From a virus, in IMG/VR virus record IMGVR_UViG_3300042090_002597, positions 41,741-105,740 of that record: a stretch of 64,000 nt of DNA; one strand, 5' to 3'. The notes under the pieces are model-generated. The model saw only the letters and a program-made list of their open reading frames with translations, was not told where the DNA came from and made no database searches. Below, one piece after another: positions 16,736 through 59,327 of this stretch. The position numbers were made by a program, and so were the translations under genes. How positions within the stretch are numbered: the stretch's first letter is position 1; each line of letters starts with the position of its first letter.

Positions 16736-18304
16736 TCACATGCATTCATAGGCCCACGAAGTGGAGGCGAGCACCGAGCCCGCCAGGGTGAAGCCGCTGG
16801 CGGATTTTGTGGACAGATAAGGCAGTGTGGTTCCGATCGCCGCGGCGGTGCTGTTCGCAGGGAAAAAGACACAGGCTTTCGGCGCGGAATTCCAGGAAGC
16901 CGCGAAGGACACCGCGCACGAAGTGGTACTGGCCGAACTGATATTGATGACACCCGCCATGTCGTTGGACCCGGCGGCTATCGACCCGTTCGTGCCGGTG
17001 CCACAGGCTCCGCTGGCGATCGTGGGCGCAGCAGTCGAGCCAAGCGTGATATGGCCAGTGGTATCCGCCGAAAGAGAGACCGCGCCTGCGGGTGCCAACT
17101 CCCAACCTGCGCCTCCGGACACATATCCCATCCAGGACGAACCGAGCGCAACACCGTTAGGCAGATAATTGGGGTCCGTATTGGTGGAGGCGCCATAGAT
17201 GCGCTGCCCGGCTGCCATGGCGATAGCGCCGTTATTGGACCCGAAATTGGCAGTGGAGAAATCAAGGCCGACTTTGGAATTGCCGAACCCGCTGAAAAAT
17301 GCGTCTATCGGTGCGGTCGAGCCCGACGCCTGGATACGAACACCCGCCCAGAACTGACCAAGCGCAGCGGCACCATTTGTGCGCGTAAAATTGAACACGG
17401 CGCCAACGGCTGCGGTGTCGTATCCATTGTCCGCGAAATTATATTCCAATGCCTGAAGATATGTTCCCGTTTGATATGAATTTACATCGCCATTATTGGC
17501 GATGCAGGCAGGACCAGCCAGAAAATTTGTGGCGTTGACGTTGGTGGAGTTACAGAACAATTCTGCGTTATAGCCCACTACGTCGCCTTGTCCTTTGTTG
17601 CGGGCGTAGGTTTTGAAAACGGCCACGCCGGTGCGTCCGCTATTAGTCGAATTGGACGCATTGTAGCCGGAGGTATTGGTGAAAAGAGTTACGAAAGGCG
17701 ATGCTTCTGGCGTCCACAAATAGCCCGACGACGGCTGGCCCAACGAAGCGGCGCCACTGATCGTGGTCTCGGTGCCGGTGACGATGCGAGATATGTCGTC
17801 GTTCCAGATCGCCCCGTAGGGACCGCCACTGCCGACACTGGTTGTTGGTGCTGTAATGGTCAACACCGCGCGCGGCGCGTATTTGACTCCGGTGCCGTCA
17901 ATAAGTTGGCCCGGTCCGGTGACTTTGTAAGCGGACGGAAAAGTAACAACCAGACAGGTTCCGGTGGCGACAGGTCCGCCTCCGGCAGTTTCGAACGAAC
18001 CGAAAGGCACGCTGTCGTCGGTGCTGCCATTGCATGCGGCACCATAGTCTTTCAGGTTGAGCACATCGGTGAAATGAGAATTGACCGAACGCGGTGTCGG
18101 CAATCCGGAGCCAGTGACCAGTGTGCCGGTCATGGAGCCGCCGGACAGAACACCGCCAACAGTATCGACTTTTGCCGCGAAAAAGGAATTCCACTGCGCG
18201 GCGCTCAGCACCTGGCCTGTCTGCACACCGGGACTCGACTGCGCCAGTACCGCACCGGCAGCAAAAAGCGTGTACGCAAAAGCGATCAGCAAGCGCGCTT
18301 TCAT
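16736..18304 (-). CDS. Tailspike/fibre-like protein with N-terminal signal peptide
   Basis: The 522-residue protein begins MKARLLIAFAYTLFAAGAVLAQ, a typical Sec signal with A-x-A cleavage. A segment FTDVLNLKDYGAACNGSTDD (about residues 77-96) follows, resembling the VxxFGAxGDGxTDD start of pectate-lyase-like tailspikes. The rest is Gly/Ser/Thr/Asn-rich beta structure and ends ASGFTLAGSVLASTSWAYECM, like fibre C-terminal beta domains. GGAG precedes the ATG. A signal peptide is unexpected for a virion part assembled in the cytoplasm. Confidence 0.75.
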   Translation of the reverse strand: MKARLLIAFAYTLFAAGAVLAQSSPGVQTGQVLSAAQWNSFFAAKVDTVGGVLSGGSMTGTLVTGSGLPTPRSVNSHFTDVLNLKDYGAACNGSTDDSVPFGSFETAGGGPVATGTCLVVTFPSAYKVTGPGQLIDGTGVKYAPRAVLTITAPTTSVGSGGPYGAIWNDDISRIVTGTETTISGAASLGQPSSGYLWTPEASPFVTLFTNTSGYNASNSTNSGRTGVAVFKTYARNKGQGDVVGYNAELFCNSTNVNATNFLAGPACIANNGDVNSYQTGTYLQALEYNFADNGYDTAAVGAVFNFTRTNGAAALGQFWAGVRIQASGSTAPIDAFFSGFGNSKVGLDFSTANFGSNNGAIAMAAGQRIYGASTNTDPNYLPNGVALGSSWMGYVSGGAGWELAPAGAVSLSADTTGHITLGSTAAPTIASGACGTGTNGSIAAGSNDMAGVINISSASTTSCAVSFAASWNSAPKACVFFPANSTAAAIGTTLPYLSTKSASGFTLAGSVLASTSWAYECM

Positions 18305-27210: not shown

Positions 27211-27893
27211 GACGAAAACCCTGTTGGGAGGCCGCCAGAGTAAGCCGAACTGCCGGTATTAACCGTGGCTGCGTCGCCGGAGCTGAACCCGACCTGCGCG
27301 ATGATGTAGAGCGAGGTCGAGATGCCGCTCAGCGCAATACCTCCGTTCTGCGATCCGACGTTGGGGCTATAGCTCGCGTTTCCGTTCCAGTTCGAAGAAG
27401 GCGACGCGCGCGCCCATATCTGCGGCGGACTCAGCGTAAAGTCGATGGCGAAGCCGACGACGGCGCCAGCCGACCACGTTCCAGGGCTGCCTTGCGGACC
27501 GTTGTTGTAGTAGATTGATCCGCCGGAAGCGTAATACAGCGAGTGAACATCGGCACCAATGTTTCCGCTGGCCGTCGGATAAGATGAGTCCGCCAGTCCG
27601 ATGGCCGGAACGGTCGTGCTCGGCGTGATCTCGAAGTAGCAGCGCGTCCCTGAGTTGACGGCGGTGTTTCGAGCTGCGGCGCCCCCCGTTTGGAACGTCG
27701 TCCACGTCGCCGTCAGGTTGACGTTGCTGTAGGTAATGTAGGACGTGTTGAGCGTCGTGTCCCAGGTCGAGTGCGCGACGGATGGCAGCCCCGGCACGCC
27801 CAGGCGTGCCGTCACCCCCGGCGTCGGCCCGAACGGTCCAGCTGCGGCCGCGCAAGACCACAGGAGCGCGCAGAGAAGCGCGAGGCGACGCAT
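27201..27893 (-). CDS. SPRY/concanavalin-like surface protein with signal peptide
   Basis: The protein starts MRRLALLCALLWSCAAAAGPFGP, a signal peptide. The 200-residue mature part follows the SPRY pattern: CYFEITPSTTVPAIGLAD, then YYNNGPQGSPGTWSAGAVVGFAIDF, QIWARASPSSNWNG and a final GGLPTGFSSCW. SPRY-like domains occur in phage structural and receptor-binding proteins. It couples by TGATG to the large fibre gene upstream. Exported or virion location is uncertain. Confidence 0.7.
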   Translation of the reverse strand: MRRLALLCALLWSCAAAAGPFGPTPGVTARLGVPGLPSVAHSTWDTTLNTSYITYSNVNLTATWTTFQTGGAAARNTAVNSGTRCYFEITPSTTVPAIGLADSSYPTASGNIGADVHSLYYASGGSIYYNNGPQGSPGTWSAGAVVGFAIDFTLSPPQIWARASPSSNWNGNASYSPNVGSQNGGIALSGISTSLYIIAQVGFSSGDAATVNTGSSAYSGGLPTGFSSCW

Positions 27894-30800
27894 CAGCGCA
27901 TCTCCTCCGCCGTGACCGTCAGCGAGGTCAACGCGGTTGTCGACACCGTGCCGACGCTCTTGGCCGCGAGGTCGATCCAGTAGGCCGTTCCCGGTGTCAG
28001 GCCGGCGGCGTGTCCGACCGCGCAGAACGGACGCGCCACGTTTGCTGCCGTCACGGTCGTTTCGGCTTTCGATGTCACTGGGTTTCCGGTCTGCGTGCCT
28101 GTTAGCGCAGCCGCATTCGTGGGTGCGGTGCTGGTGCCGTAAGAGACTTGCACCGTGATGCCGTCGCCGGAAGTGGTAGAGGTCTGAGTGACGACGCCGC
28201 AGATCTCGATCCGCACGTTGCCGCTGGTCTGCGGCGTGATCGTACCGGCGAGCCCCTGCATGAAGTACGTTGAGGTGTTTGCCGGGGCGATCGGGTTGCC
28301 CGGGGTTGACAGTGTGAACGCACTGCTGACCGGCGCATAGCACTGCATCGCGCCGTTCGTCACCATCACCGAGCAATCAATGTTCGTGACCGCGCTGTTG
28401 CCGGGGTTGAGACTGACGATCAGCGCCGCGCCGCTCGGGTTGAGGAAGTTGCTGCCGTAGGCGAGCGAGTAGGGCGCGCCCGAAGCAGGCTGCGTGATCT
28501 GATAGTGCAGCGATTGCCCGGCGACGGTGTTGGTGGGATTGCCCAGCGTGTGCCCGCTTGCCGTCAACGTCACCGTGAAGCTGTTCGACAGTGCGCCATT
28601 TGACGCGATGGTCGAAGCGTCCGTAAGAGCGACGGGCGTGGTCAGCGCGCCCTCGGCGATCGCCACCTGCGAGCCGTTGTCGGTGATCGCCGTCGTCGCC
28701 AGGGGAGACGTCCCGTTACCCTTATAGACGGTGTTCGCGACCAACGTTGCGAGGCCGGTGCCGCCGCGGGGAACATTGATTATTGGCGCTTCGTTGAGCG
28801 AAGCATATAGGCTCGTGCCATCACCCTGGAAGCAAATCGTTTCGCCAGGGTATTGCGAAGCGAAGGCAGGATACATCGTGGCGCCGGAGGAATTCGTCAG
28901 CGTGTTGGTGCCAGACGCGGTGATATTGACCAAGCATGCGGATTGCCCGGCACCGAATATGGTTGAGCCAAAATTGGTTGACGAAATGGTTATTGTTCCA
29001 CCACCGCTTATGTTTAGCGGAATGGTGTTTCCCATATCGACAGTGCCGAAAGTAAATCCTGCAGTTTTTGCGGATTCTACCGGGAAGTTCGTATTCAACG
29101 TGCTGGATGCCACTACGAGACCGTTGCCCAGCGTATCGCCAAGAATAGTTGATCCGCTATTCCACAAAGCTATCTGACCACTGACAGGACTGCCAGAACT
29201 GGAAACATTTCCACCGCCACTAGTGGCACTTAACGTTCCGCCAGACAGAGACAGCCCAGATCCGACCGTGACATCCTGACCGACACCTGCGGTACCGCTG
29301 CCGCCATAAAGCTGGGAGGTCGTTGCGGAAGGAAGCACAGCCAGCACGCCGGTGGTGTCCGGCAGTGTCAGCGTCACCGACCCGAGCGCGCCTGTCGGCG
29401 GAGTAATCGTGATCGAGCCGCTGTTGGCGTTGTAGTAGACATCCGTGCCTGCGTTGGTTCCGGACAGACCATGCCATACCGGACCTTCAAATAGCGATAT
29501 GGCCAGACCGCCAAGCGTGTGGATAGCGTAGGACGTAGATGTGCCCGCGGTGTGGTTATCCGCAATGCGAAGACCTGCGTAATTGGCTATGCCACCGGAG
29601 CCCGCGAGTTGTTCGACATCGAATGCGTCAAACTGGGTGACCGTTTGGCCCGCCGACCCCGAATTTCCGCCTGCGCGAAAAATATCCATCTGCGCAACAG
29701 TGTTGCCGCTGGTAGCTCCGGCATAAGCAGTTGACAGCACACCGACGGGAGACACGATGCCGCTATATACATCTATAGCCGCGTTCACTGCGGTTATGGG
29801 TGCGTACAGTATATTGCCGTTGCTGTTTCCTACGGACGCGCCTGTCAGCGTCGTTACGGTTATACCGTCTCCGGAGTTAAGCTGGCCGCTTCCATTATCC
29901 GCAAGAGCTACCGATATTCCTTCCATCGCATTTATGTTGTAGGCGTTTCCGCTTGGCAGAGTTGACTGCACATTCAAACCCCACGACTGCGCGAGCGATC
30001 CTGCACCGGTGCTCGCGGTCAGAGGAAGTGTCTGGACTATGGCCAGACCGTTGAAATCCGGAAGACGCGATGAACCTCCCGGGAATGTACTGTTTATTAT
30101 CATCGTGGACGGATACGCAGTCTGCGTATTCGAACTGGAGCCAACTTGCAGGAAATTTGTTACACTTTCATTTCCGACAACTCGCTCACCGCTAGACAGA
30201 TCAACAACCTGCGAGGGATAGCTTTGTGCGCCTGTGTTGCTCTGACCTTGGTCCGCCACGACAGAACCGCAGGACGTATTTCCGAGAAAGCGGAGAACGC
30301 CGGATGCGATCTGGCTTGCGTTTCCGCCGTATATGTCGCACGATGTTGATCCGGTGATGCTTGGTGTTGTTACGTTTATGTAGTTTGTCGAGTTAAGCGT
30401 GGCATTTCCGGAAGTTATGGTTCCCGTGTTTCCGGTTATGCTCTGCCCAAGCGCATTGAGCGCGTTTACCCGGTAAAAATATGATGTGCTGCCTGCTGTC
30501 CCAACCGTGGCGAGTGTCGGCGCGGACGGTTGTGTCAGCGGTGTGGCAAAATACAAAAAACTGGAACTGGCACCAAACACGCCTGCGTTGTTAAATTGGA
30601 TCTGCGTGTTCGACCCGGAAGGTAACGCATTGATCGTATTGCTGTTGGCAATCGACACATTCGAGCCGCCAACTAAAGACAGGATACCGGAATTGCTGAC
30701 GGTGCCGCTGCTCACCGTCAAGCCGCTGCCGACGACCATACCGCCAAGAGCGGAAGTAGTAGCCGCGGTCACGCTCAAAGTGCCGCCGGATGCGGACAGC

Positions 30801-32503
30801 GCGGTTCCCGCTGCGATGGTGCCGGTCAAGCCGCCGAGTTGCAGAACACCGGAATTCGAGAGAGTGCCGCCGGACCAAGCCAGACCGCTCAGAGTGGTGG
30901 CTTCAAGCGAGGTGCCGTTCGTGCTTACCACCCCGGCGGCGGGAGAGATCAGGTTCAACGTGCCGGTGCTGGTGATGGTGCCCCCGGGCGTCGACCCGAC
31001 TTCCAGGTTCGCCCCTGCCGTGACTGCACTCACGCCACCCGGCGGCGACGCCCAGGTGCCGTCGCCGCGCCAGAAAGTGCTGCTCGACGCGCCGGTACCT
31101 CCGGCGAGATTGGATGTCGGTAGATTACCGGTGATGTCCGAAGCCAAATTCACTGCGCCGAATGATGGCGCTCCGGAAGCATTGCCGTGCAGGACAGTGG
31201 TAGTGGTTCCGAGCGAACCAAGCACGATCGGAACGGCACCAGCACCGCCGCCGAGCACGATCGCGTTCTGCGTCAACGCGGCAGACGAGGTGATGGTCCC
31301 GGCTGCGGTGAAGGCGAGGATGCCGCCGCTGGCGCCGCTGGTCAGACCCGTGCCGCCCAGATTGACTGCGACCGGCGAGGTCAGCGAAAAAGTCGAACTG
31401 TTCAGGGTCAAACCGGTTCCCGCAGCGTAGAGACCGCCGCCGGAAGCCGAAAGCGTGCCGCCTGCGCTCAGAGTCAGGTTCGCTCCGATGGTCGCGGGCG
31501 ACAGAGTGGTTCCGTTGCTGTAGACGATGCCGGTGGATGGCGCGGCTAGGCCGATCGTGCCCGCAGTGGTGATGGTGCCGCCGGTGAGCAGTCCCGCTGC
31601 GACGATTGTGGTTACCGTGCCGGTGCCGGGGGGAGTAGCCCATGTACCGTCACCGCGCCAGAAAGTGCTGCTTGATGCGCCGGTGCCGCCCCCGAGATTG
31701 GAAGTGGACAGATTGCCGGTCACATCGGAAGCCAGATTCACCGCACCGAATGTCGGAGCGCCGGAGGCGTTGCCGTGCAGGACAGTGGTAGTAGTGCCGA
31801 GAGTGCCGAGAGGCGCTGGCGTAGCGCCTACCCCGCCGCCGAGCACGATCGCGTTCAGGGTTAGCACACCGGACGAAGTGGCGACGCCACTGCCGGTGAA
31901 ACCGAGAATGCCGCCGCTGGTGCCGCTGGTCAGACCCGTGCCGCCTAGCGAGACGGCGAGTGGCGAATTGATGGACAGCACACCGCTGCCATTTACTTGC
32001 AGCCCAGATCCTGGACTGACGCCGCCGATGGAGAGAGTTGTGGCGGGCGACAAGGATAGCGTACCGCCGGAATAGGCCAGACCTGTCCCAGCGGTGCCGG
32101 TCTGCAGGATAGTGCCGTTGCTGACGACAAAACCCGCGCTTGGCGCACCATTGAATGAAAGCGTGCCGCTGTTGTTAGTCAACCCGGAGCCGATGGAAGA
32201 GATCGTGCCTGCCTGCCACAGCGCGCTCAGGGTGGTTCCGTTGACGACCAGGCCGCTGCTGATTGTGGCGTCGACGAGCGTGGTGCCGGTGCTTGCGATG
32301 ATGCCCGGACTGACATAGGGCAGCGTGATCGTGCCAGCGTTAATGATCGGGTTGGACGGCGATGCCTGCAAAAACCCACCGACAGTGAGCGGTGCGCGGG
32401 ATCCGCTGCCCCCGCCGGACGGAGGCTGGGGGCCATAGGGCTGCGCGAGCGCGGTGGACGCGAGCAGCAGTGAAGCCAGCCCGAAAGCACCGGAGTATTT
32501 CAT
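27893..32503 (-). CDS. Large repetitive tail-fibre protein with signal peptide, 1536 aa
   Basis: AAGGA precedes the ATG. MKYSGAFGLASLLLASTALAQPYGP is a signal peptide. About 900 residues of Gly/Ser/Thr-rich fibre repeats follow: TVTTIVAAGLLTGGTITTAG, GTTTTVLHGNASGAPTFG and SSSTFWRGDGTWATPP, a motif frequent in phage fibres. The middle has FFYRVNALNALGQ-like and trimeric-autotransporter-like sections. The C-terminal part contains typical fibre tip strands (YFMQGLAGTITPQTSGNVRIEICG). Two copies of a 588-bp unit lie within. It is the largest gene in the window. Confidence 0.8.
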   Translation of the reverse strand: MKYSGAFGLASLLLASTALAQPYGPQPPSGGGSGSRAPLTVGGFLQASPSNPIINAGTITLPYVSPGIIASTGTTLVDATISSGLVVNGTTLSALWQAGTISSIGSGLTNNSGTLSFNGAPSAGFVVSNGTILQTGTAGTGLAYSGGTLSLSPATTLSIGGVSPGSGLQVNGSGVLSINSPLAVSLGGTGLTSGTSGGILGFTGSGVATSSGVLTLNAIVLGGGVGATPAPLGTLGTTTTVLHGNASGAPTFGAVNLASDVTGNLSTSNLGGGTGASSSTFWRGDGTWATPPGTGTVTTIVAAGLLTGGTITTAGTIGLAAPSTGIVYSNGTTLSPATIGANLTLSAGGTLSASGGGLYAAGTGLTLNSSTFSLTSPVAVNLGGTGLTSGASGGILAFTAAGTITSSAALTQNAIVLGGGAGAVPIVLGSLGTTTTVLHGNASGAPSFGAVNLASDITGNLPTSNLAGGTGASSSTFWRGDGTWASPPGGVSAVTAGANLEVGSTPGGTITSTGTLNLISPAAGVVSTNGTSLEATTLSGLAWSGGTLSNSGVLQLGGLTGTIAAGTALSASGGTLSVTAATTSALGGMVVGSGLTVSSGTVSNSGILSLVGGSNVSIANSNTINALPSGSNTQIQFNNAGVFGASSSFLYFATPLTQPSAPTLATVGTAGSTSYFYRVNALNALGQSITGNTGTITSGNATLNSTNYINVTTPSITGSTSCDIYGGNASQIASGVLRFLGNTSCGSVVADQGQSNTGAQSYPSQVVDLSSGERVVGNESVTNFLQVGSSSNTQTAYPSTMIINSTFPGGSSRLPDFNGLAIVQTLPLTASTGAGSLAQSWGLNVQSTLPSGNAYNINAMEGISVALADNGSGQLNSGDGITVTTLTGASVGNSNGNILYAPITAVNAAIDVYSGIVSPVGVLSTAYAGATSGNTVAQMDIFRAGGNSGSAGQTVTQFDAFDVEQLAGSGGIANYAGLRIADNHTAGTSTSYAIHTLGGLAISLFEGPVWHGLSGTNAGTDVYYNANSGSITITPPTGALGSVTLTLPDTTGVLAVLPSATTSQLYGGSGTAGVGQDVTVGSGLSLSGGTLSATSGGGNVSSSGSPVSGQIALWNSGSTILGDTLGNGLVVASSTLNTNFPVESAKTAGFTFGTVDMGNTIPLNISGGGTITISSTNFGSTIFGAGQSACLVNITASGTNTLTNSSGATMYPAFASQYPGETICFQGDGTSLYASLNEAPIINVPRGGTGLATLVANTVYKGNGTSPLATTAITDNGSQVAIAEGALTTPVALTDASTIASNGALSNSFTVTLTASGHTLGNPTNTVAGQSLHYQITQPASGAPYSLAYGSNFLNPSGAALIVSLNPGNSAVTNIDCSVMVTNGAMQCYAPVSSAFTLSTPGNPIAPANTSTYFMQGLAGTITPQTSGNVRIEICGVVTQTSTTSGDGITVQVSYGTSTAPTNAAALTGTQTGNPVTSKAETTVTAANVARPFCAVGHAAGLTPGTAYWIDLAAKSVGTVSTTALTSLTVTAEEMR
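31021..31978. repeat. Tandem imperfect repeat of 588 bp inside the fibre gene
   Basis: Matching landmarks recur at an offset of exactly 588 bases (196 codons). CAGAAAGTGCTGCT occurs at 31071 and 31659, and GTCAGACCCGTGCCGCC at 31341 and 31929. At protein level both copies read FWRGDGTWA(T/S)PP and GGTGLTSG(T/A)SGGIL. Period and frame are preserved, so the fibre lengthened by in-frame duplication and then diverged. Confidence 0.8.
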
Positions 32504-44467: not shown

Positions 44468-44796
44468 CCGAACATTTTTGGTTCCGGTATGAAGACGTTC
44501 GATATGCTGCTCCGGTTGATGAGTGGGGCGATTCATACGGGATCGGTCACCTGGAAGTGAAACTTAGAAAGTTTCCTGTCCTGAAGCACACGCCGAAAGG
44601 CGCATGGATAAACGGCTGGCGAGGCAGGCGATTTGTTCTCCGAGACGCAAGAAAAAGATACGCTTGTCCGACGTTGGAAGAAGCGAAAGAATCTTTTATC
44701 GCCCGCAAAAAACGGCAAGCTGGTATTTACCGAGCGCGGCTCAGAGACGCTGAAGAAGCGATCAAACTGATTGAAAGACAAGGTGTGCTGGCATGA
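44464..44796 (+). CDS. Hypothetical protein, 110 aa
   Basis: ATGA overlaps join it to the polymerase and glycosyltransferase genes. The product MTEHFWFRYEDVRYAAPVDEWGDSYGIG... is rich in aromatic residues in the N-terminal half and helical and basic in the C-terminal half (EAKESFIARKKRQAGIYRARLRDAEEAIKLI). No family is recognised. Confidence 0.65.
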   Translation: MTEHFWFRYEDVRYAAPVDEWGDSYGIGHLEVKLRKFPVLKHTPKGAWINGWRGRRFVLRDARKRYACPTLEEAKESFIARKKRQAGIYRARLRDAEEAIKLIERQGVLA

Positions 44797-45656
44797 GAAT
44801 TTTGGTTCGGCGCTCCGGCGCTCTTGGCGATGTCGTTTTGACCACACCGGTTATCCGCCGGCTCCGACGGGAAAATCCGGACGCCGAAATCGGTGTGCAG
44901 ACCGCTTTCACTGGCATATTCAACAATTCACCGCATCGGCTTTTGGTAACCAACCAGAACCCGATGCCGTATCCGTGGTCGCCGGAGGGCGGTCTTGATC
45001 GTTTGATTGATCTTGATCTGGCCTACGAAAAACGCCCGACCATGCACATTGTGCAGGCGTATATGCAGGAAGCCTTTGGTGACACGGGGGCGCCGGAGGA
45101 CCTGCATCAGGAAATGTTCTTCAAGCCTGTCGAACCCTGGGGCGGCTCCAAGCGGGTGGTGGCGGTGCACGCCGCGAAAGCTGGCTGGCGCAACCGGACA
45201 CTGCCGGAGGCCACCTGGTTGAAGGTGGTGAAGTTGCTGCAGGACGAGGGCTGTTTCCCGATTCTGGTGGGTTCGATGAAAGACGCGCTGCCGGCAGCGA
45301 AATGCGCTTCGTTTCACAGCGGCGACATCATGCAGCAAGCCGCGATGATCGCCCGGTGCCGTTGCTTCATCGGCTCCGACTCGGGGTTGCTGCATGTGGC
45401 GGGAGCGACTCAGACCCCGATCGTCGGTGTGTTTACCTCAGTGATGCCAGCCTATCGCCTTCCGTGGCGGCACGGTACGCAGGGCTGGAACTGTGCCTCG
45501 GTAATGCCAAACCTGGACTGTGTTGGGTGCGTCGCCCGCCAGCCAATCCCGACCAATGTCGAGACCTGCGAGCGCGGTGACATTGCTTGCACCGGAATGG
45601 TGAGCGCGGAAACGATCGTTGACATGGCGGTGCATCTGATTGAGGAAGTCGGGTGA
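44793..45656 (+). CDS. Glycosyltransferase family 9 (heptosyltransferase-like)
   Basis: The N-terminus MRILVRRSGALGDVVLTTPVIRRLR is the GT9 start pattern (R-x-x-x-L-G-D-x-x-x-x-P). The donor-site motif GSDSGLLHVAGATQTPIVGVFTS is near residue 195. Length (287) is shorter than LPS heptosyltransferases. It probably modifies LPS, the virion or DNA with a sugar; the substrate is unknown. The methyltransferase genes at 46598-47910 may belong to the same modification pathway. Confidence 0.8.
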   Translation: MRILVRRSGALGDVVLTTPVIRRLRRENPDAEIGVQTAFTGIFNNSPHRLLVTNQNPMPYPWSPEGGLDRLIDLDLAYEKRPTMHIVQAYMQEAFGDTGAPEDLHQEMFFKPVEPWGGSKRVVAVHAAKAGWRNRTLPEATWLKVVKLLQDEGCFPILVGSMKDALPAAKCASFHSGDIMQQAAMIARCRCFIGSDSGLLHVAGATQTPIVGVFTSVMPAYRLPWRHGTQGWNCASVMPNLDCVGCVARQPIPTNVETCERGDIACTGMVSAETIVDMAVHLIEEVG

Positions 45657-53446: not shown

Positions 53447-55714
53447 ATGTCCGGTTCGCTCACACCCACCGTCGCCGCCGCGCCGAGCACCGTTCAGGTT
53501 GCCGCCGAAGCGATTGCGCTGATCGCGGCACAGACGAATGTTCCGACCGATTACAATGTGGGCTCGAATGTCCGCACCATGCTGGAGGCGCAGGGATCCG
53601 TCGTCGAACTGCAGGCTCTGTCGGATCAGGCCATGGCGTTCCAGGCACTGGTTTACGGTGCGATGTCACTGTTCGGCGTTACGCAGAGTTCGGGAAATGT
53701 GGCAACCGGTGTCGTGACTTTCGCCACGTCGTTTCCTGTGAGTTCGGCCGCGAATGTGTCCCAGGCCGTTCTGATCCCCAGTGGCACGCTGGTGCAGACG
53801 GCGGGCGGCATCCAATTCACCACATATTCGAATATAACGCTCGCGTCCGGCACCAATTCCATCACCGCTGGTGTTTTCGCGGTGCAGCCGGGTATTGCCG
53901 GAAATGTGGTTGCTTCTGCAATTACCGGGACACCGCTGACCTCGATCGGCTATCCGCTCTACGTAACAAACGCCAATGCCACCGCTGGCGGGGCGAATGC
54001 CGGTTCACAGAGCACGGCGCTGGCCCTTTTTACTGCCAAGGCAGCGTCGCTGGGACTGTGCACGCCGGTCTCGATCGCCAATGCAGTGGTCGGCGTGGTG
54101 GCGACCGGCACCGGCGAGACGGTGCAATTTGGTGCCTGCTACGACGATAAGACCGAAATCTTGACCGCAAACGGCTGGTACAAGTTCAGTGAACTTCCGT
54201 ACGGTATCCACGTAGCGACGCTTAACCCTGACACGCATGAACTTGAATACCAGATGCCTAGTGCGTATCAAGCATTTCCATATTCCGGAGAGATGGTACG
54301 GATAAACGGTCGGTTCCTGGACATGTGCGTGACGCCGGATCACAGAATGTACGTCAAGGCCAGAGGCGGCAATAAGTGGGGCTTCACAAAAGCTGATTCG
54401 CTTGCGAAAAACAGCATGTTCATGCGCAACTGCAAGAACAGCGAAACGGACGTTGATTTTTTCCAGATCGGAAAACATCGTATCGCCGCAGACCTTTGGC
54501 TCGAATTTCTTGGGTACTACGTGTCAGAAGGATGCGTAGGCCGCTATGAGTCAATCCGTAAAAATAGCCGTGAAAAGCGAAGGGCAGGAACCAAGTGCGT
54601 GGCGTACTCGCTTCAGATACGACAACACGATCCGAAGGCGCGGGCAAAAATAAAGAAATGCTTGGAGAGACTGCCACTGACAGTACACGAATGGGGTACC
54701 GGTCTAAGCGCTCACAGCAAAGACCTGTTCGAACATTTAATTGCACTAGGAAAAGCATGCGATAAACGTTTGCCAGTTTACGCAAAAAACCTATCAGCTA
54801 GGCAGTCCAAAATACTTCTGGATGCTTTGATTGAAGGTGATGGGTTCGACGGGCGGGTGAACACTAAAAATCACCATACTGAGGTTATGTATTTTACTGC
54901 GTCAAAACAACTTGCGGACGACGTACAAGAAATTGCTATGCGCGCAGGCTTGGCTGCGTCCATAAAAGAAGACAATCGCATAGGTCGTGAAGTAAATATA
55001 AAAGGACGTGGCGTAACTGGTCACACAAGTTGCACGCAGTATCGCGTAACGATTCACCAACAACTTTTCACGCACACAGTCGGCGAAAACATGAGCCGCG
55101 AACACTACGAGGGGAGAGTTTACTGTGTTACGGTTCCGAATCATATAATTTACGTAAGACGTAACGGAAAAGTGTGCTGGAACGGCCAATGTTATGAGCC
55201 CTGGATCGCAGCTGGTTCTGGCGCTGGTTCCGGTACCGCCGGTTACACGGTCTATATCGATAACGGCACGGGCGGCGCCAGCGCGGCACTGATCGCGGCA
55301 ACACAGGCATGGCTTTCCGGATCGCAGATTGCGAATCAAAGCGGTTTCCGCCCTGCAGGCGTGCCCTATACTGTCTCCGGAGTGACGCCGGTCTATGCAA
55401 CCGTGGTTGTGAGCGGAACCCTTTTCCCTGGCCTGTTCGGGTCCGGCAGCGTTGCCGCAGCGGCGGTAAGCGGCATCACCGCCTATTTCAACACGCTCGG
55501 AATTTGCGCGCCGAATTCTTCCGGTGTGCCGCTGAACTATGCTTTGCAGCCGCAGGTAGCAGCCGCCGCAGCTGACGCCGGACTTGGCTCGTTCTCCTCG
55601 CTGACGGTCAATCTCTACTACACCGCAAGCTCCGGGTCCGCTGTCTCTTTGGTCAGCGGCGGGGTTGGCACCCGTGTGATTCTGTCATCTCTGTCCGTGA
55701 ACATCACACCATGA
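53447..55714 (+). CDS. Baseplate J-like protein containing an intein
   Basis: The host part (404 residues) follows gpJ proteins: TDYNVGSNVRTMLEAQGSVVELQALSDQAM near residue 35, TGETVQFGA, then YEPWIAAGSGAGSGTAGYTVYIDNGTGG. Residues 231-581 are an in-frame intein (separate feature) ending before a second Cys (C582). Splicing would join FGA to CYEPW. Baseplate J forms the wedge arm next to gp25 and gpI. AGGA supports the ATG. Confidence 0.85.
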   Translation: MSGSLTPTVAAAPSTVQVAAEAIALIAAQTNVPTDYNVGSNVRTMLEAQGSVVELQALSDQAMAFQALVYGAMSLFGVTQSSGNVATGVVTFATSFPVSSAANVSQAVLIPSGTLVQTAGGIQFTTYSNITLASGTNSITAGVFAVQPGIAGNVVASAITGTPLTSIGYPLYVTNANATAGGANAGSQSTALALFTAKAASLGLCTPVSIANAVVGVVATGTGETVQFGACYDDKTEILTANGWYKFSELPYGIHVATLNPDTHELEYQMPSAYQAFPYSGEMVRINGRFLDMCVTPDHRMYVKARGGNKWGFTKADSLAKNSMFMRNCKNSETDVDFFQIGKHRIAADLWLEFLGYYVSEGCVGRYESIRKNSREKRRAGTKCVAYSLQIRQHDPKARAKIKKCLERLPLTVHEWGTGLSAHSKDLFEHLIALGKACDKRLPVYAKNLSARQSKILLDALIEGDGFDGRVNTKNHHTEVMYFTASKQLADDVQEIAMRAGLAASIKEDNRIGREVNIKGRGVTGHTSCTQYRVTIHQQLFTHTVGENMSREHYEGRVYCVTVPNHIIYVRRNGKVCWNGQCYEPWIAAGSGAGSGTAGYTVYIDNGTGGASAALIAATQAWLSGSQIANQSGFRPAGVPYTVSGVTPVYATVVVSGTLFPGLFGSGSVAAAAVSGITAYFNTLGICAPNSSGVPLNYALQPQVAAAAADAGLGSFSSLTVNLYYTASSGSAVSLVSGGVGTRVILSSLSVNITP
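54137..55189 (+). other. Intein with LAGLIDADG endonuclease domain inside gpJ
   Basis: The 351-residue insert starts CYDDKTEILTANGWYKFSEL (block A, nucleophile Cys), has a block B-like CVTPDHRMYV (TxxH), two LAGLIDADG helices (LEFLGYYVSEGC and LLDALIEGDGFDG) and ends VYCVTVPNHIIYVRRNGKVCWNGQ before Cys+1. The terminal Gln and missing penultimate His are unusual compared with the common HN-Cys end. Base composition is more AT-rich than the flanks, fitting later insertion. Confidence 0.9.
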
Positions 55715-56430: not shown

Positions 56431-57615
56431 ATGGTCAAGTATCCGAACTTTACCGATCCGCAGTTCCTGGACGCCGCTGCCCCTGGCGGGTTGAACCCGG
56501 CAATGTCGTTGATCGCTGCATCATTCGGCGCGATCGGCTCGGGTGTGTGGGCTGCTCCGGGACTTCTGGCTCCGGATGCGATGGTGGTCACTTTCAGCGG
56601 CATGACCGCGAATGTCAGCCTGCCGTCGCCGTGGGGTGTGGTGACCTCGGGCGGCATCCGCGTGCACGCGCACGGGACGCAGACAGGCCAGGACACACAG
56701 GCGTATACAGTCAATTTCACTTCGCTCATTCCGAGCACGGGATCGCTCACCGCGTATCTTGCGGCGACCATCACCACCATCAACCAGACGGCTTTTCCAG
56801 TTCCAGGACCGCCGCCGGGACAGCCTGCCTATGACCCGCTCTATGTGCCGTCCGTAGGTTATGCTTCGAACACCTACACGGTTGCGCTCAGCGCGGTGAC
56901 TGGCGGCATCGACAATATCAGCACGTTCGAATTGTTCCGCACCACGCTGTCCGCGTCCCAGACCGGTCTTGTGTCGGTCAGTCCGGTTGGACAGATGCGC
57001 GCTCCGGATCGCAGAGCGTGGCCTCCGTCGTACCAGACCAGCGGCGGCGCATTGGTCGCTTCGCAGGCGCAGCAGGTGATCTTCCCGCTGTATCCCAGTC
57101 TGACGTTCACGCTTCCGCTGGCCAGCGGCGCTGGGGGTCTGGCGTTCGGGTTTTCCAATCCGACAACAGGCACCTGCACTATTGCGGCCGCCGGTAGCGA
57201 CGGACTCTACGCTCTTGGCCGGTCGTCCGTCAGTTCGCTGACCATCCCTGCGGGTGGCTCCGTGGTAATGTGGGGCGACGCTTCGACCAATGCTTGGCGC
57301 TCGATCGGCGGTGATGTCGATTTTAGCCCGCAGAGTTTGAGCAGTATCGGATATAGATTTTTTCCGAACGGCATGGTACTGATGTGGGCAGCAACAGGTC
57401 TGACAACGCCAGGCGTAGGTAATTACTCGTTCACGGTTACGCTTCCTACTCCGTTTCCGAATGCACCTTTCTGGGCGATGGCCAACTGGGGCGGTTCTGC
57501 GCCTCCACTATCCGGTTCGGTCGCCGCTACTGCGTCCGGTACAACTGTTGTCGTTACAATAGCGTCGCCAGCGGCGGCTGTTTACGGAATTACATGGGCG
57601 GCATTAGGCTATTAG
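56431..57615 (+). CDS. Tail fibre protein with gp53-like C-terminal domain
   Basis: AAGGA precedes the ATG. The N-terminus NFTDPQFLDAAAPGGLNPAMSLI is probably the attachment part. The C-terminal 100 residues (RFFPNGMVLMWAATG, TVTLPTPFPNAPFWAMANWGG, AVYGITWAALGY) follow the gp53-like receptor-binding tip pattern that ends in xWxAIGY. It lies after gpI, the usual fibre position, and has no signal peptide, unlike the fibres at 16.7 and 25-33 kb. Confidence 0.75.
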   Translation: MVKYPNFTDPQFLDAAAPGGLNPAMSLIAASFGAIGSGVWAAPGLLAPDAMVVTFSGMTANVSLPSPWGVVTSGGIRVHAHGTQTGQDTQAYTVNFTSLIPSTGSLTAYLAATITTINQTAFPVPGPPPGQPAYDPLYVPSVGYASNTYTVALSAVTGGIDNISTFELFRTTLSASQTGLVSVSPVGQMRAPDRRAWPPSYQTSGGALVASQAQQVIFPLYPSLTFTLPLASGAGGLAFGFSNPTTGTCTIAAAGSDGLYALGRSSVSSLTIPAGGSVVMWGDASTNAWRSIGGDVDFSPQSLSSIGYRFFPNGMVLMWAATGLTTPGVGNYSFTVTLPTPFPNAPFWAMANWGGSAPPLSGSVAATASGTTVVVTIASPAAAVYGITWAALGY

Positions 57616-59327
57616 GACGATGGCCATTGCGGAGTGGCAAAACCATTCCACATCTGGCTAGCCAGATTAGCTGAGTTTTCCTGTGTGGAGAACACCTGCA
57701 GGCCTTGGCCTGTGCCTTGCGGCAAGCCGATCTGGTATATGCCGGAAGATCCTGGCGTATACTGGCGGCGCGCATTTCCGGTGTAGATGGATTGCAGCAA
57801 GCCGCCTGCGGAAGTATCGTTGTAAACATTCGCGGGCAAACCGCGGGTGAGCGTCAGCGTGGTCGACGATTGACCTCCGAACACGAAATGATGCGATACG
57901 CCCTCCACATAAAACTCCCAAAGCGTTCCGTCTTTGAACGGGGCATAGCGATAGCGCGTGCCGATATAGATACTCGGAGACAGCGGAATAGCGACCTGAC
58001 CTCTGAGCATCAACGGCAACGGGTGCCACCAGCTCGCCAGCGCCGCCGTCAGCGTAGCGACAGTTTGTTGGATGTCTATACCGCTGCCAGTTTGTGCCGC
58101 CTGTTGTGACGCCGTTCCAAGATAATCATAGAACCACCTGAGTGTGGCATTTACTGGCTGGTAACCGTAGCGGTGCACCGACGCCGGATCAGCGGCAGCC
58201 AAGTACACAAACGGAAACGGAACGACATTCGCACCGTTATCGCCGTACATGGTCGGGTAGGCGGTCGGATTGAGCATGTAAAAATTTCGCACCTCTTCCG
58301 AGGTGAATTCCACTCTGGACTCATAGAACCCGTAGCCGCTCGCCACTGTCAGGGGAAGCGCGGTCCACCGGCTGGTGTCCATACTGCTCGGGACATAGAT
58401 TCCGGTCGAGTTCAGTTTGGTGAAATTGAATTTCGGAATGGGCGTGACCCGCGCCACGAGTTGCGGACCAGCGGGCAGCGCAGCGGGGAAGTCTCGCATG
58501 GAGAACGTGGTACCAGACACGGCCACATTCGCATTTGCGTTGCTCTGCGAGATGAATTTGTAGACCCCGGACGGAGCAGTCGTGACAAAGAACTCGTACC
58601 AAGGCCATGGAAAGATATCCATGAATTTCGCCATCCACGATTCCAGTCCGAGGAATTGTTCCGTGAGTGGGATGTATACGTTCGGATACTGCTCCATATT
58701 TTGCGAAATGAGAGTGCTGAACGGTTTTCGCGTATCGCCGCCCTGATAGGGCACGAAAGTTCCGTTGAGCATGCCGGACGGGCCGGTCATGATATTGAAC
58801 CACGCCTGGCCCACCTTTACAGGTGTGCCGTCGCCGCGCAGTCCTTGTGACATCGCTTCGACAAGACTTGCGGGCACGTAGGCAAGTTGGCCTTCCAAAC
58901 CGGTGCCGCCGACAAGGCCGTACATGGCCAGCGAGTACCAGTTCTGCGTGTTGAAGAACCACGCGAAATCCGATCCGGTGATAGTCGGTCGACGCATGGC
59001 CGAAGATCCCTGGTCCCGCGTCGACCACATCTGATCTTCGGCGGTAACCGTGGCGACGCCGTCCAGCACAATCGCGGAATCAGATCCTCGGCTCATGCCG
59101 ATCAGGACATGACTGCATGGGGTAATGATTTCGGTCCAGTCCGGCGATGACTCCGGACCGTTCGGACCACCGGGTGCGAGTTCTATGGAGAAATTTCCAT
59201 TGCCGCCGCCGCGCAATGTTTTCGACACGGTGACGGATTTTATCTGGCCACCCTGAATGTAGACCGGCCCTCCTTCGTAGGGGTAGGCCTCGATCGCGCA
59301 GCCGACTGTTGCAAACGGTTCAGCCAT
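57612..59327 (-). CDS. Baseplate hub / gpD-like protein, 571 aa
   Basis: The protein begins FATVGCAIEAYPYEGGPVYIQGGQIKSVTVSKTLRGGGNGNFSIEL, a strand pattern like the gp27/gpD hub domain with LxxxLxxxL and SIxL. It ends with helical/beta parts (FVFGGQSSTTLTLTRGLPANVY). It directly follows the tape measure gene, the usual place for the hub. It converges with the fibre gene with 4 bases of overlap. Confidence 0.75.
   Translation of the reverse strand: MAEPFATVGCAIEAYPYEGGPVYIQGGQIKSVTVSKTLRGGGNGNFSIELAPGGPNGPESSPDWTEIITPCSHVLIGMSRGSDSAIVLDGVATVTAEDQMWSTRDQGSSAMRRPTITGSDFAWFFNTQNWYSLAMYGLVGGTGLEGQLAYVPASLVEAMSQGLRGDGTPVKVGQAWFNIMTGPSGMLNGTFVPYQGGDTRKPFSTLISQNMEQYPNVYIPLTEQFLGLESWMAKFMDIFPWPWYEFFVTTAPSGVYKFISQSNANANVAVSGTTFSMRDFPAALPAGPQLVARVTPIPKFNFTKLNSTGIYVPSSMDTSRWTALPLTVASGYGFYESRVEFTSEEVRNFYMLNPTAYPTMYGDNGANVVPFPFVYLAAADPASVHRYGYQPVNATLRWFYDYLGTASQQAAQTGSGIDIQQTVATLTAALASWWHPLPLMLRGQVAIPLSPSIYIGTRYRYAPFKDGTLWEFYVEGVSHHFVFGGQSSTTLTLTRGLPANVYNDTSAGGLLQSIYTGNARRQYTPGSSGIYQIGLPQGTGQGLQVFSTQENSANLASQMWNGFATPQWPSS

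Follow-up and report, generated by a model that had tools for sequence, protein, structure and literature searches.

A putative LAGLIDADG homing intein ending in glutamine in the baseplate J gene of an uncultured tailed phage

The baseplate gene J of this virus record is interrupted by a long insert that bears intein motifs and ends in an unusual residue, raising the questions of what kind of element it is, whether it could still excise itself from the J protein, and how exceptional its host gene is. We analyzed a window of 64,000 nucleotides, corresponding to bases 41741-105740 of the 105,740-base record. The open reading frame of gene J (53447-55714) is open throughout its 755 codons and contains an in-frame insert of 351 codons (54137-55189), running from Cys1 to Gln351. 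The insert starts with a TGC codon (Cys) at 54137 and ends with a CAA codon (Gln) at 55187-55189, directly followed by the TGT codon of the +1 Cys that opens the sequence CYEPW. These boundaries agree to the base with the first-pass annotation, which had placed a 351-residue insert between FGA and CYEPW. Its removal would join exteins of 230 and 174 amino acids into a predicted spliced J of 404 amino acids. The features of the locus are as follows.

53447..54136, plus strand: N-extein of baseplate J, 230 amino acids, ending in ..VQFGA (Pfam Baseplate_J and phrog_6; 67% identity to the intein-free J of locus L084)
54137..55189, plus strand: intein with LAGLIDADG homing endonuclease, 351 amino acids (78 IMG/VR relatives; AlphaFold2 pLDDT 94.3; PDB inteins with Z up to 26.8)
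54137..54166, plus strand: block A CYDDKTEILT with the nucleophile Cys1 (Cys1 and Thr6 invariant in 56 rows)
54332..54343, plus strand: block B TxxH, Thr66-His69 (Thr in 51/56 and His in 55/56 rows)
54500..54532, plus strand: first LAGLIDADG motif LEFLGYYVSEG, acidic Glu131 (E in 48/56 and D in 7/56 rows)
54815..54844, plus strand: second LAGLIDADG motif LLDALIEGDG, acidic Asp235 (D in 52/56 rows; Pfam LAGLIDADG_3)
55115..55156, plus strand: block F RVYCVTVPNHIIYV, with Cys330 (Cys in 50/56 rows)
55169..55189, plus strand: block G KVCWNGQ, ending in Gly350-Gln351 (family: GN in 103/112, Q in 4/112 copies)
55190..55714, plus strand: C-extein of baseplate J, 174 amino acids plus stop, beginning with the +1 Cys of CYEPW (67% identity to L084 J; Glu-Pro at +3/+4 invariant in the J alignment)

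The identity of the host gene is given by the N-extein, which matches Pfam Baseplate_J (PF04865, 2e-14) and carries the match of the J precursor to phrog_6, baseplate wedge subunit (4.9e-16); in intein-free J homologues, phrog_6 matches extend over both halves, as in L084 J (residues 2-350). The surrounding genes are tail genes, encoding a tail tube initiator-like protein, a baseplate protein, a tail-fibre-like protein, a tail protein matching a lysin-type family, and a tape measure protein with a lysozyme domain. The insert differs from both exteins in its GC content (0.48 versus 0.616 and 0.613) and in its third-position GC (0.51 versus 0.65-0.70). It matches Pfam LAGLIDADG_3 (4.3e-07) as well as PHROGs named thymidylate synthase, RNR (ribonucleotide reductase), and terminase, presumably via intein-carrying members of those profiles. 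This copy of the intein is known from a single metagenomic record; given that CAA is two substitutions away from either Asn codon, a single sequencing error is an unlikely source of the terminal Gln. The structure predicted for J (pLDDT 59.7) was too poor for locating the insertion site in the J fold.

To classify the insert, we compared it with the hallmarks of class 1 inteins. The insert is in frame and missing from six homologous J genes; it has Cys at position 1, where class 1 inteins carry Cys or Ser, and at +1, where they carry Cys, Ser, or Thr; its block B contains TxxH; and Gln351 aligns on the terminal-Asn column, at the place of the cyclizing residue (Asn or, more rarely, Gln or Asp). 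Its predicted structure has a Hint fold, matching PDB inteins with Z scores of 15-27. Class 3 inteins have no nucleophile at position 1 and rely on a Trp-Cys-Thr triplet. Given that Cys1 is present and this triplet is absent, with a block B (TPDHRMY) devoid of Trp and with Asn rather than Thr before the Gly-Gln of block G, the insert is a class 1 and not a class 3 intein. The two LAGLIDADG motifs with their acidic residues Glu131 and Asp235 are those of a homing endonuclease, and in a 56-row alignment the window copy keeps Cys1, TxxH, the block F Cys, the +1 Cys, and both acidic residues.

AlphaFold2, run with 56 family rows, gave a confident model (pLDDT 94.3, pTM 0.92). Its best VIA-align matches were PI-PkoII (2cw7; Z 26.8, rmsd 4.3 over 310 residues) and TliVMA (7qsu; Z 26.4, rmsd 4.0 over 304 residues), and Foldseek retrieved the same set of full-length LAGLIDADG inteins with E values down to 5.6e-18; with both programs, Hint-only mini-inteins ranked after the full-length ones. 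TliVMA, PhoVMA (7qst), PI-PkoII, and PI-SceI (1vde) share with the J intein a Hint domain with an inserted LAGLIDADG endonuclease (Z 20-27 over ∼290-310 residues) but have only 14-19% identity to it and reside in archaeal or yeast hosts. The best matches among viral models were an intein-bearing minor capsid protein, an RNA polymerase, and the products of other genes. A fold match says nothing on activity. The first-pass call of an intein with LAGLIDADG motifs in J is thus borne out by the Pfam match, the motifs, the intein fold, and the empty sites in relatives.

The J intein belongs to a large known family of phage inteins, from which it stands out only by host gene and terminal residue. Relatives are encoded by 78 IMG/VR loci, nearly all matched over their full length, and a wider scan found at least 591 (out of 599 pattern matches). 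The family is recognizable by CYDDKTEILT at its N terminus and, at its C terminus, by VRRNGK..W(C/S)GN followed by S, T, or C. The phage class 1 inteins of loci L002-L079 and L101-L179 have this ending and share full-length similarity (the nearest rows at ∼35-42% identity), blocks A, B, and F, and the endonuclease type with the J intein, which differs in its baseplate J host, its terminal Gln, and the Asn at its third-last position. Across 112 distinct copies, including that of the window, 103 end in GN, 2 in GQ, and 2 in SQ, and the remaining 5 have another residue ahead of the final Asn; the +1 position is occupied by S in 60 copies, by T in 40, and by C in 12.

These counts bear on the C-terminal junction, which the first-pass annotation had read as unusual (WNGQ/C in place of HN/C). 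HN/C is indeed the typical C-terminal junction of inteins in general. Given that a penultimate Gly is the norm in this family (GN in 103/112), however, HN/C is the wrong yardstick for the J intein, in which the Gly is the rule and not a defect; what remains unusual is Gln351, since a terminal Gln occurs in only 4/112 copies, at three insertion sites. One of the two copies that end in GQ is that of the window, which is also alone among the 112 in having Asn at the third-last position (Asn349), so that its block G departs from the family at two positions. On the tree, the Gln label needs three changes, which could alternatively be one gain plus losses. The window copy clusters with the Gln-ending inteins L025/L165 and with inteins of a site following the sequence NSWG only on a fork that the tree program marked as open. 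L025/L165 and L047 share family and terminal Gln with the J intein, and L025/L165 lie in the same weakly resolved cluster; they differ in having other insertion sites and Thr or Ser at +1, and L025/L165 in their penultimate Ser.

Gln-ending class 1 inteins are reported to follow the same route as the others, with cyclization of Gln (PMC4031507). Among those reported to splice, the PolII inteins of Pyrococcus abyssi and M. marisnigri are slow with Gln and improved by Asn, whereas for the RNR intein of Chilo iridescent virus (CIV), Gln supports splicing better than Asn does (PMC4031507). The first-pass suggestion that splicing may be slow is therefore possible, as in P. abyssi PolII, but this is not the sole precedent. 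The CIV RNR (efficient) and P. abyssi PolII (slow) inteins, which we likened to the J intein from their published descriptions, share its C-terminal Gln and differ in host gene. For the penultimate Gly, the class 1 intein of mycobacteriophage Bethlehem gp51 (RDF), likewise compared by its published description, has the same residue in another host gene and splices better with it than does its Gly-to-His mutant (PMC5050341). The precedents for Gln cyclization, together with the Gly of the Bethlehem intein, lead us to expect, by analogy, that the J intein would splice. The RNR (NrdA) intein of Caulobacter phage phiCbK (L180:15085-16005) was considered as a Gly-Gln precedent and rejected: its C terminus is called Gly-Gln in PMC3556154, which yet names N584, and the deposited sequence ends in Gly-Asn.

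Taken together, we consider it very probable that the insert is a selfish mobile class 1 homing intein with a two-motif LAGLIDADG endonuclease, located in J of an uncultured tailed phage and splicing by Gln cyclization to a 404-residue J. In the splicing steps that its residues suggest, Cys1 would attack the Ala230-Cys1 peptide bond, assisted by Thr66 and His69, and the chain would then be handed to the +1 Cys. Gln351 would cyclize to a glutarimide, replacing the usual Asn succinimide, to release the intein, and a closing S-N shift would join the exteins. The freed intein would cut intein-free J alleles of coinfecting phages, whose repair would copy the intein in. The broader view of an ordinary homing intein with an uncommon host and a rare but precedented last residue is well supported. 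Combining a terminal Gln with a penultimate Gly, and belonging to a large phage intein family with intein-free J alleles known, it makes the chemistry of Gln and Asn comparable within one family.

The rarity of Gln in the family, the two deviating positions of block G, and the slow PolII inteins would also fit an element that is partly or wholly splicing defective, in which Gln351 and Asn349 block or slow step 3, so that precursor or N-cleaved J accumulates and is tolerated, or the element is being lost. We regard this as unlikely, given that J is a core baseplate gene with both exteins open and conserved, that the other catalytic residues of the intein are all kept, that Gln is found at three insertion sites with three tree changes, as expected if it is tolerated, and that the CIV RNR intein works better with Gln. 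One could also imagine, from the rare Gln and the host gene, that slow Gln-dependent splicing serves as a timer, with unspliced J barred from the wedge and baseplate assembly awaiting condition-dependent splicing; to this idea we assign little probability.

For the position of the splice junction, intein-free J genes were informative. When the joined exteins alone served as the query, neither viral nor genome contigs yielded a J relative; J relatives were instead reached via the tail gene at 57612-59327, followed by two-sequence J alignment (the same tail gene retrieved nothing in genome contigs). In six homologues (L084, L093, L086, L087, L088, and L089; ∼45-67% identity), J is contiguous across the site: in L084, for example, the N-extein match stops at base 17082, and that of the C-extein begins at 17081. 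Their +1 residues are A, C, A, C, L, and C, respectively, so that Cys occurs in three of the six (L093, L087, and L089), and the Glu-Pro after +1/+2 is invariant, placing the insertion site at a conserved (C/A)-(Y/F)-Glu-Pro motif. The intein thus lies before a native Cys codon, one shared by some intein-free relatives. A profile search of nine relative records, which may be fragments, detected no member of the intein family, whereas the window copy was recovered with that profile at 8.6e-107 as a positive control.

Asn349, two residues upstream of Gln351, is itself cyclizable, and a junction elsewhere, e.g., after Asn349 (WN/GQC), would leave Gly-Gln in J. This is very improbable, as it would make +1 a Gly, unable to act as nucleophile; moreover, Gln351 aligns on the family terminal Asn and the following Cys on the +1 C/S/T of all 112 copies, and in intein-free J genes the site carries no additional Gly-Gln. 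That the insert, in frame and without stops, is a native J domain rather than an intein can be dismissed, since six homologues lack it with their flanks joined exactly (three of them with Cys at +1), its fold and motifs are those of inteins, and its base composition differs from that of the exteins; the comparison with intein-free relatives proposed in the first-pass annotation thus refutes a native origin.

Returning to the homing intein and its host gene, baseplate wedge protein J joins the hosts of phage inteins, which have been located in terminases and metabolic genes (PMC3706429, PMC7886860, PMC3322345). Among 59 relatives scanned, the recognized hosts were portal proteins (∼9), terminases, glycosyltransferases, epimerases, RNA polymerase, MCM, DNA polymerases, RNR, ThyX, and head morphogenesis proteins. 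Baseplate J was absent from the families listed for these 59 relatives (top 25 of each library), and in 50 of the records, Baseplate_J matches never fell at intein loci. The open-access literature searched, a part of all literature, contained no description of a baseplate J intein, and the passages of PMC7409376 consulted report none in J specifically. Within this sample, our data support the earlier description of the baseplate wedge as an uncommon host; given that portal and head morphogenesis proteins are frequent hosts of the family, a virion protein is not a strange host in itself.

Further inteins were sought in the 105,740-base record. A profile search found no second intein of this family elsewhere in it, and long gaps in its methyltransferase and DNA polymerase matches showed no intein block by eye. 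The Pfam Intein_splicing model had no match in the record either, which says little, since it also misses the J intein itself. In a jumbo phage record (G004), a 1,391-residue baseplate J-like protein (L094, G004:172000-179000) has almost 1,000 extra residues between the halves of its Baseplate_J match; we rejected it as a second J intein, as no intein motif was seen by eye. The window also holds a 1,536-codon open reading frame with no PHROG or Pfam match (27893-32503) and a gene of glycosyltransferase family 9 (heptosyltransferase-like; 44793-45656) near the DNA polymerase A gene of this phage.

Among the relatives, many near ones (L002, L003, L006, L101, L104-L106, and L108-L111) are inserted right after NSWG, a site shared by several records. 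We take NSWG to resemble the motif around the active-site Asn in peptidases of the papain type; a PHROG peptidase is matched by L006. Finally, some single open frames appear to hold two inteins each (L002:1985-5170, L005:3461-6895, L024, L031, L043, and L073), the host in L005 being a nucleotide-sugar epimerase.
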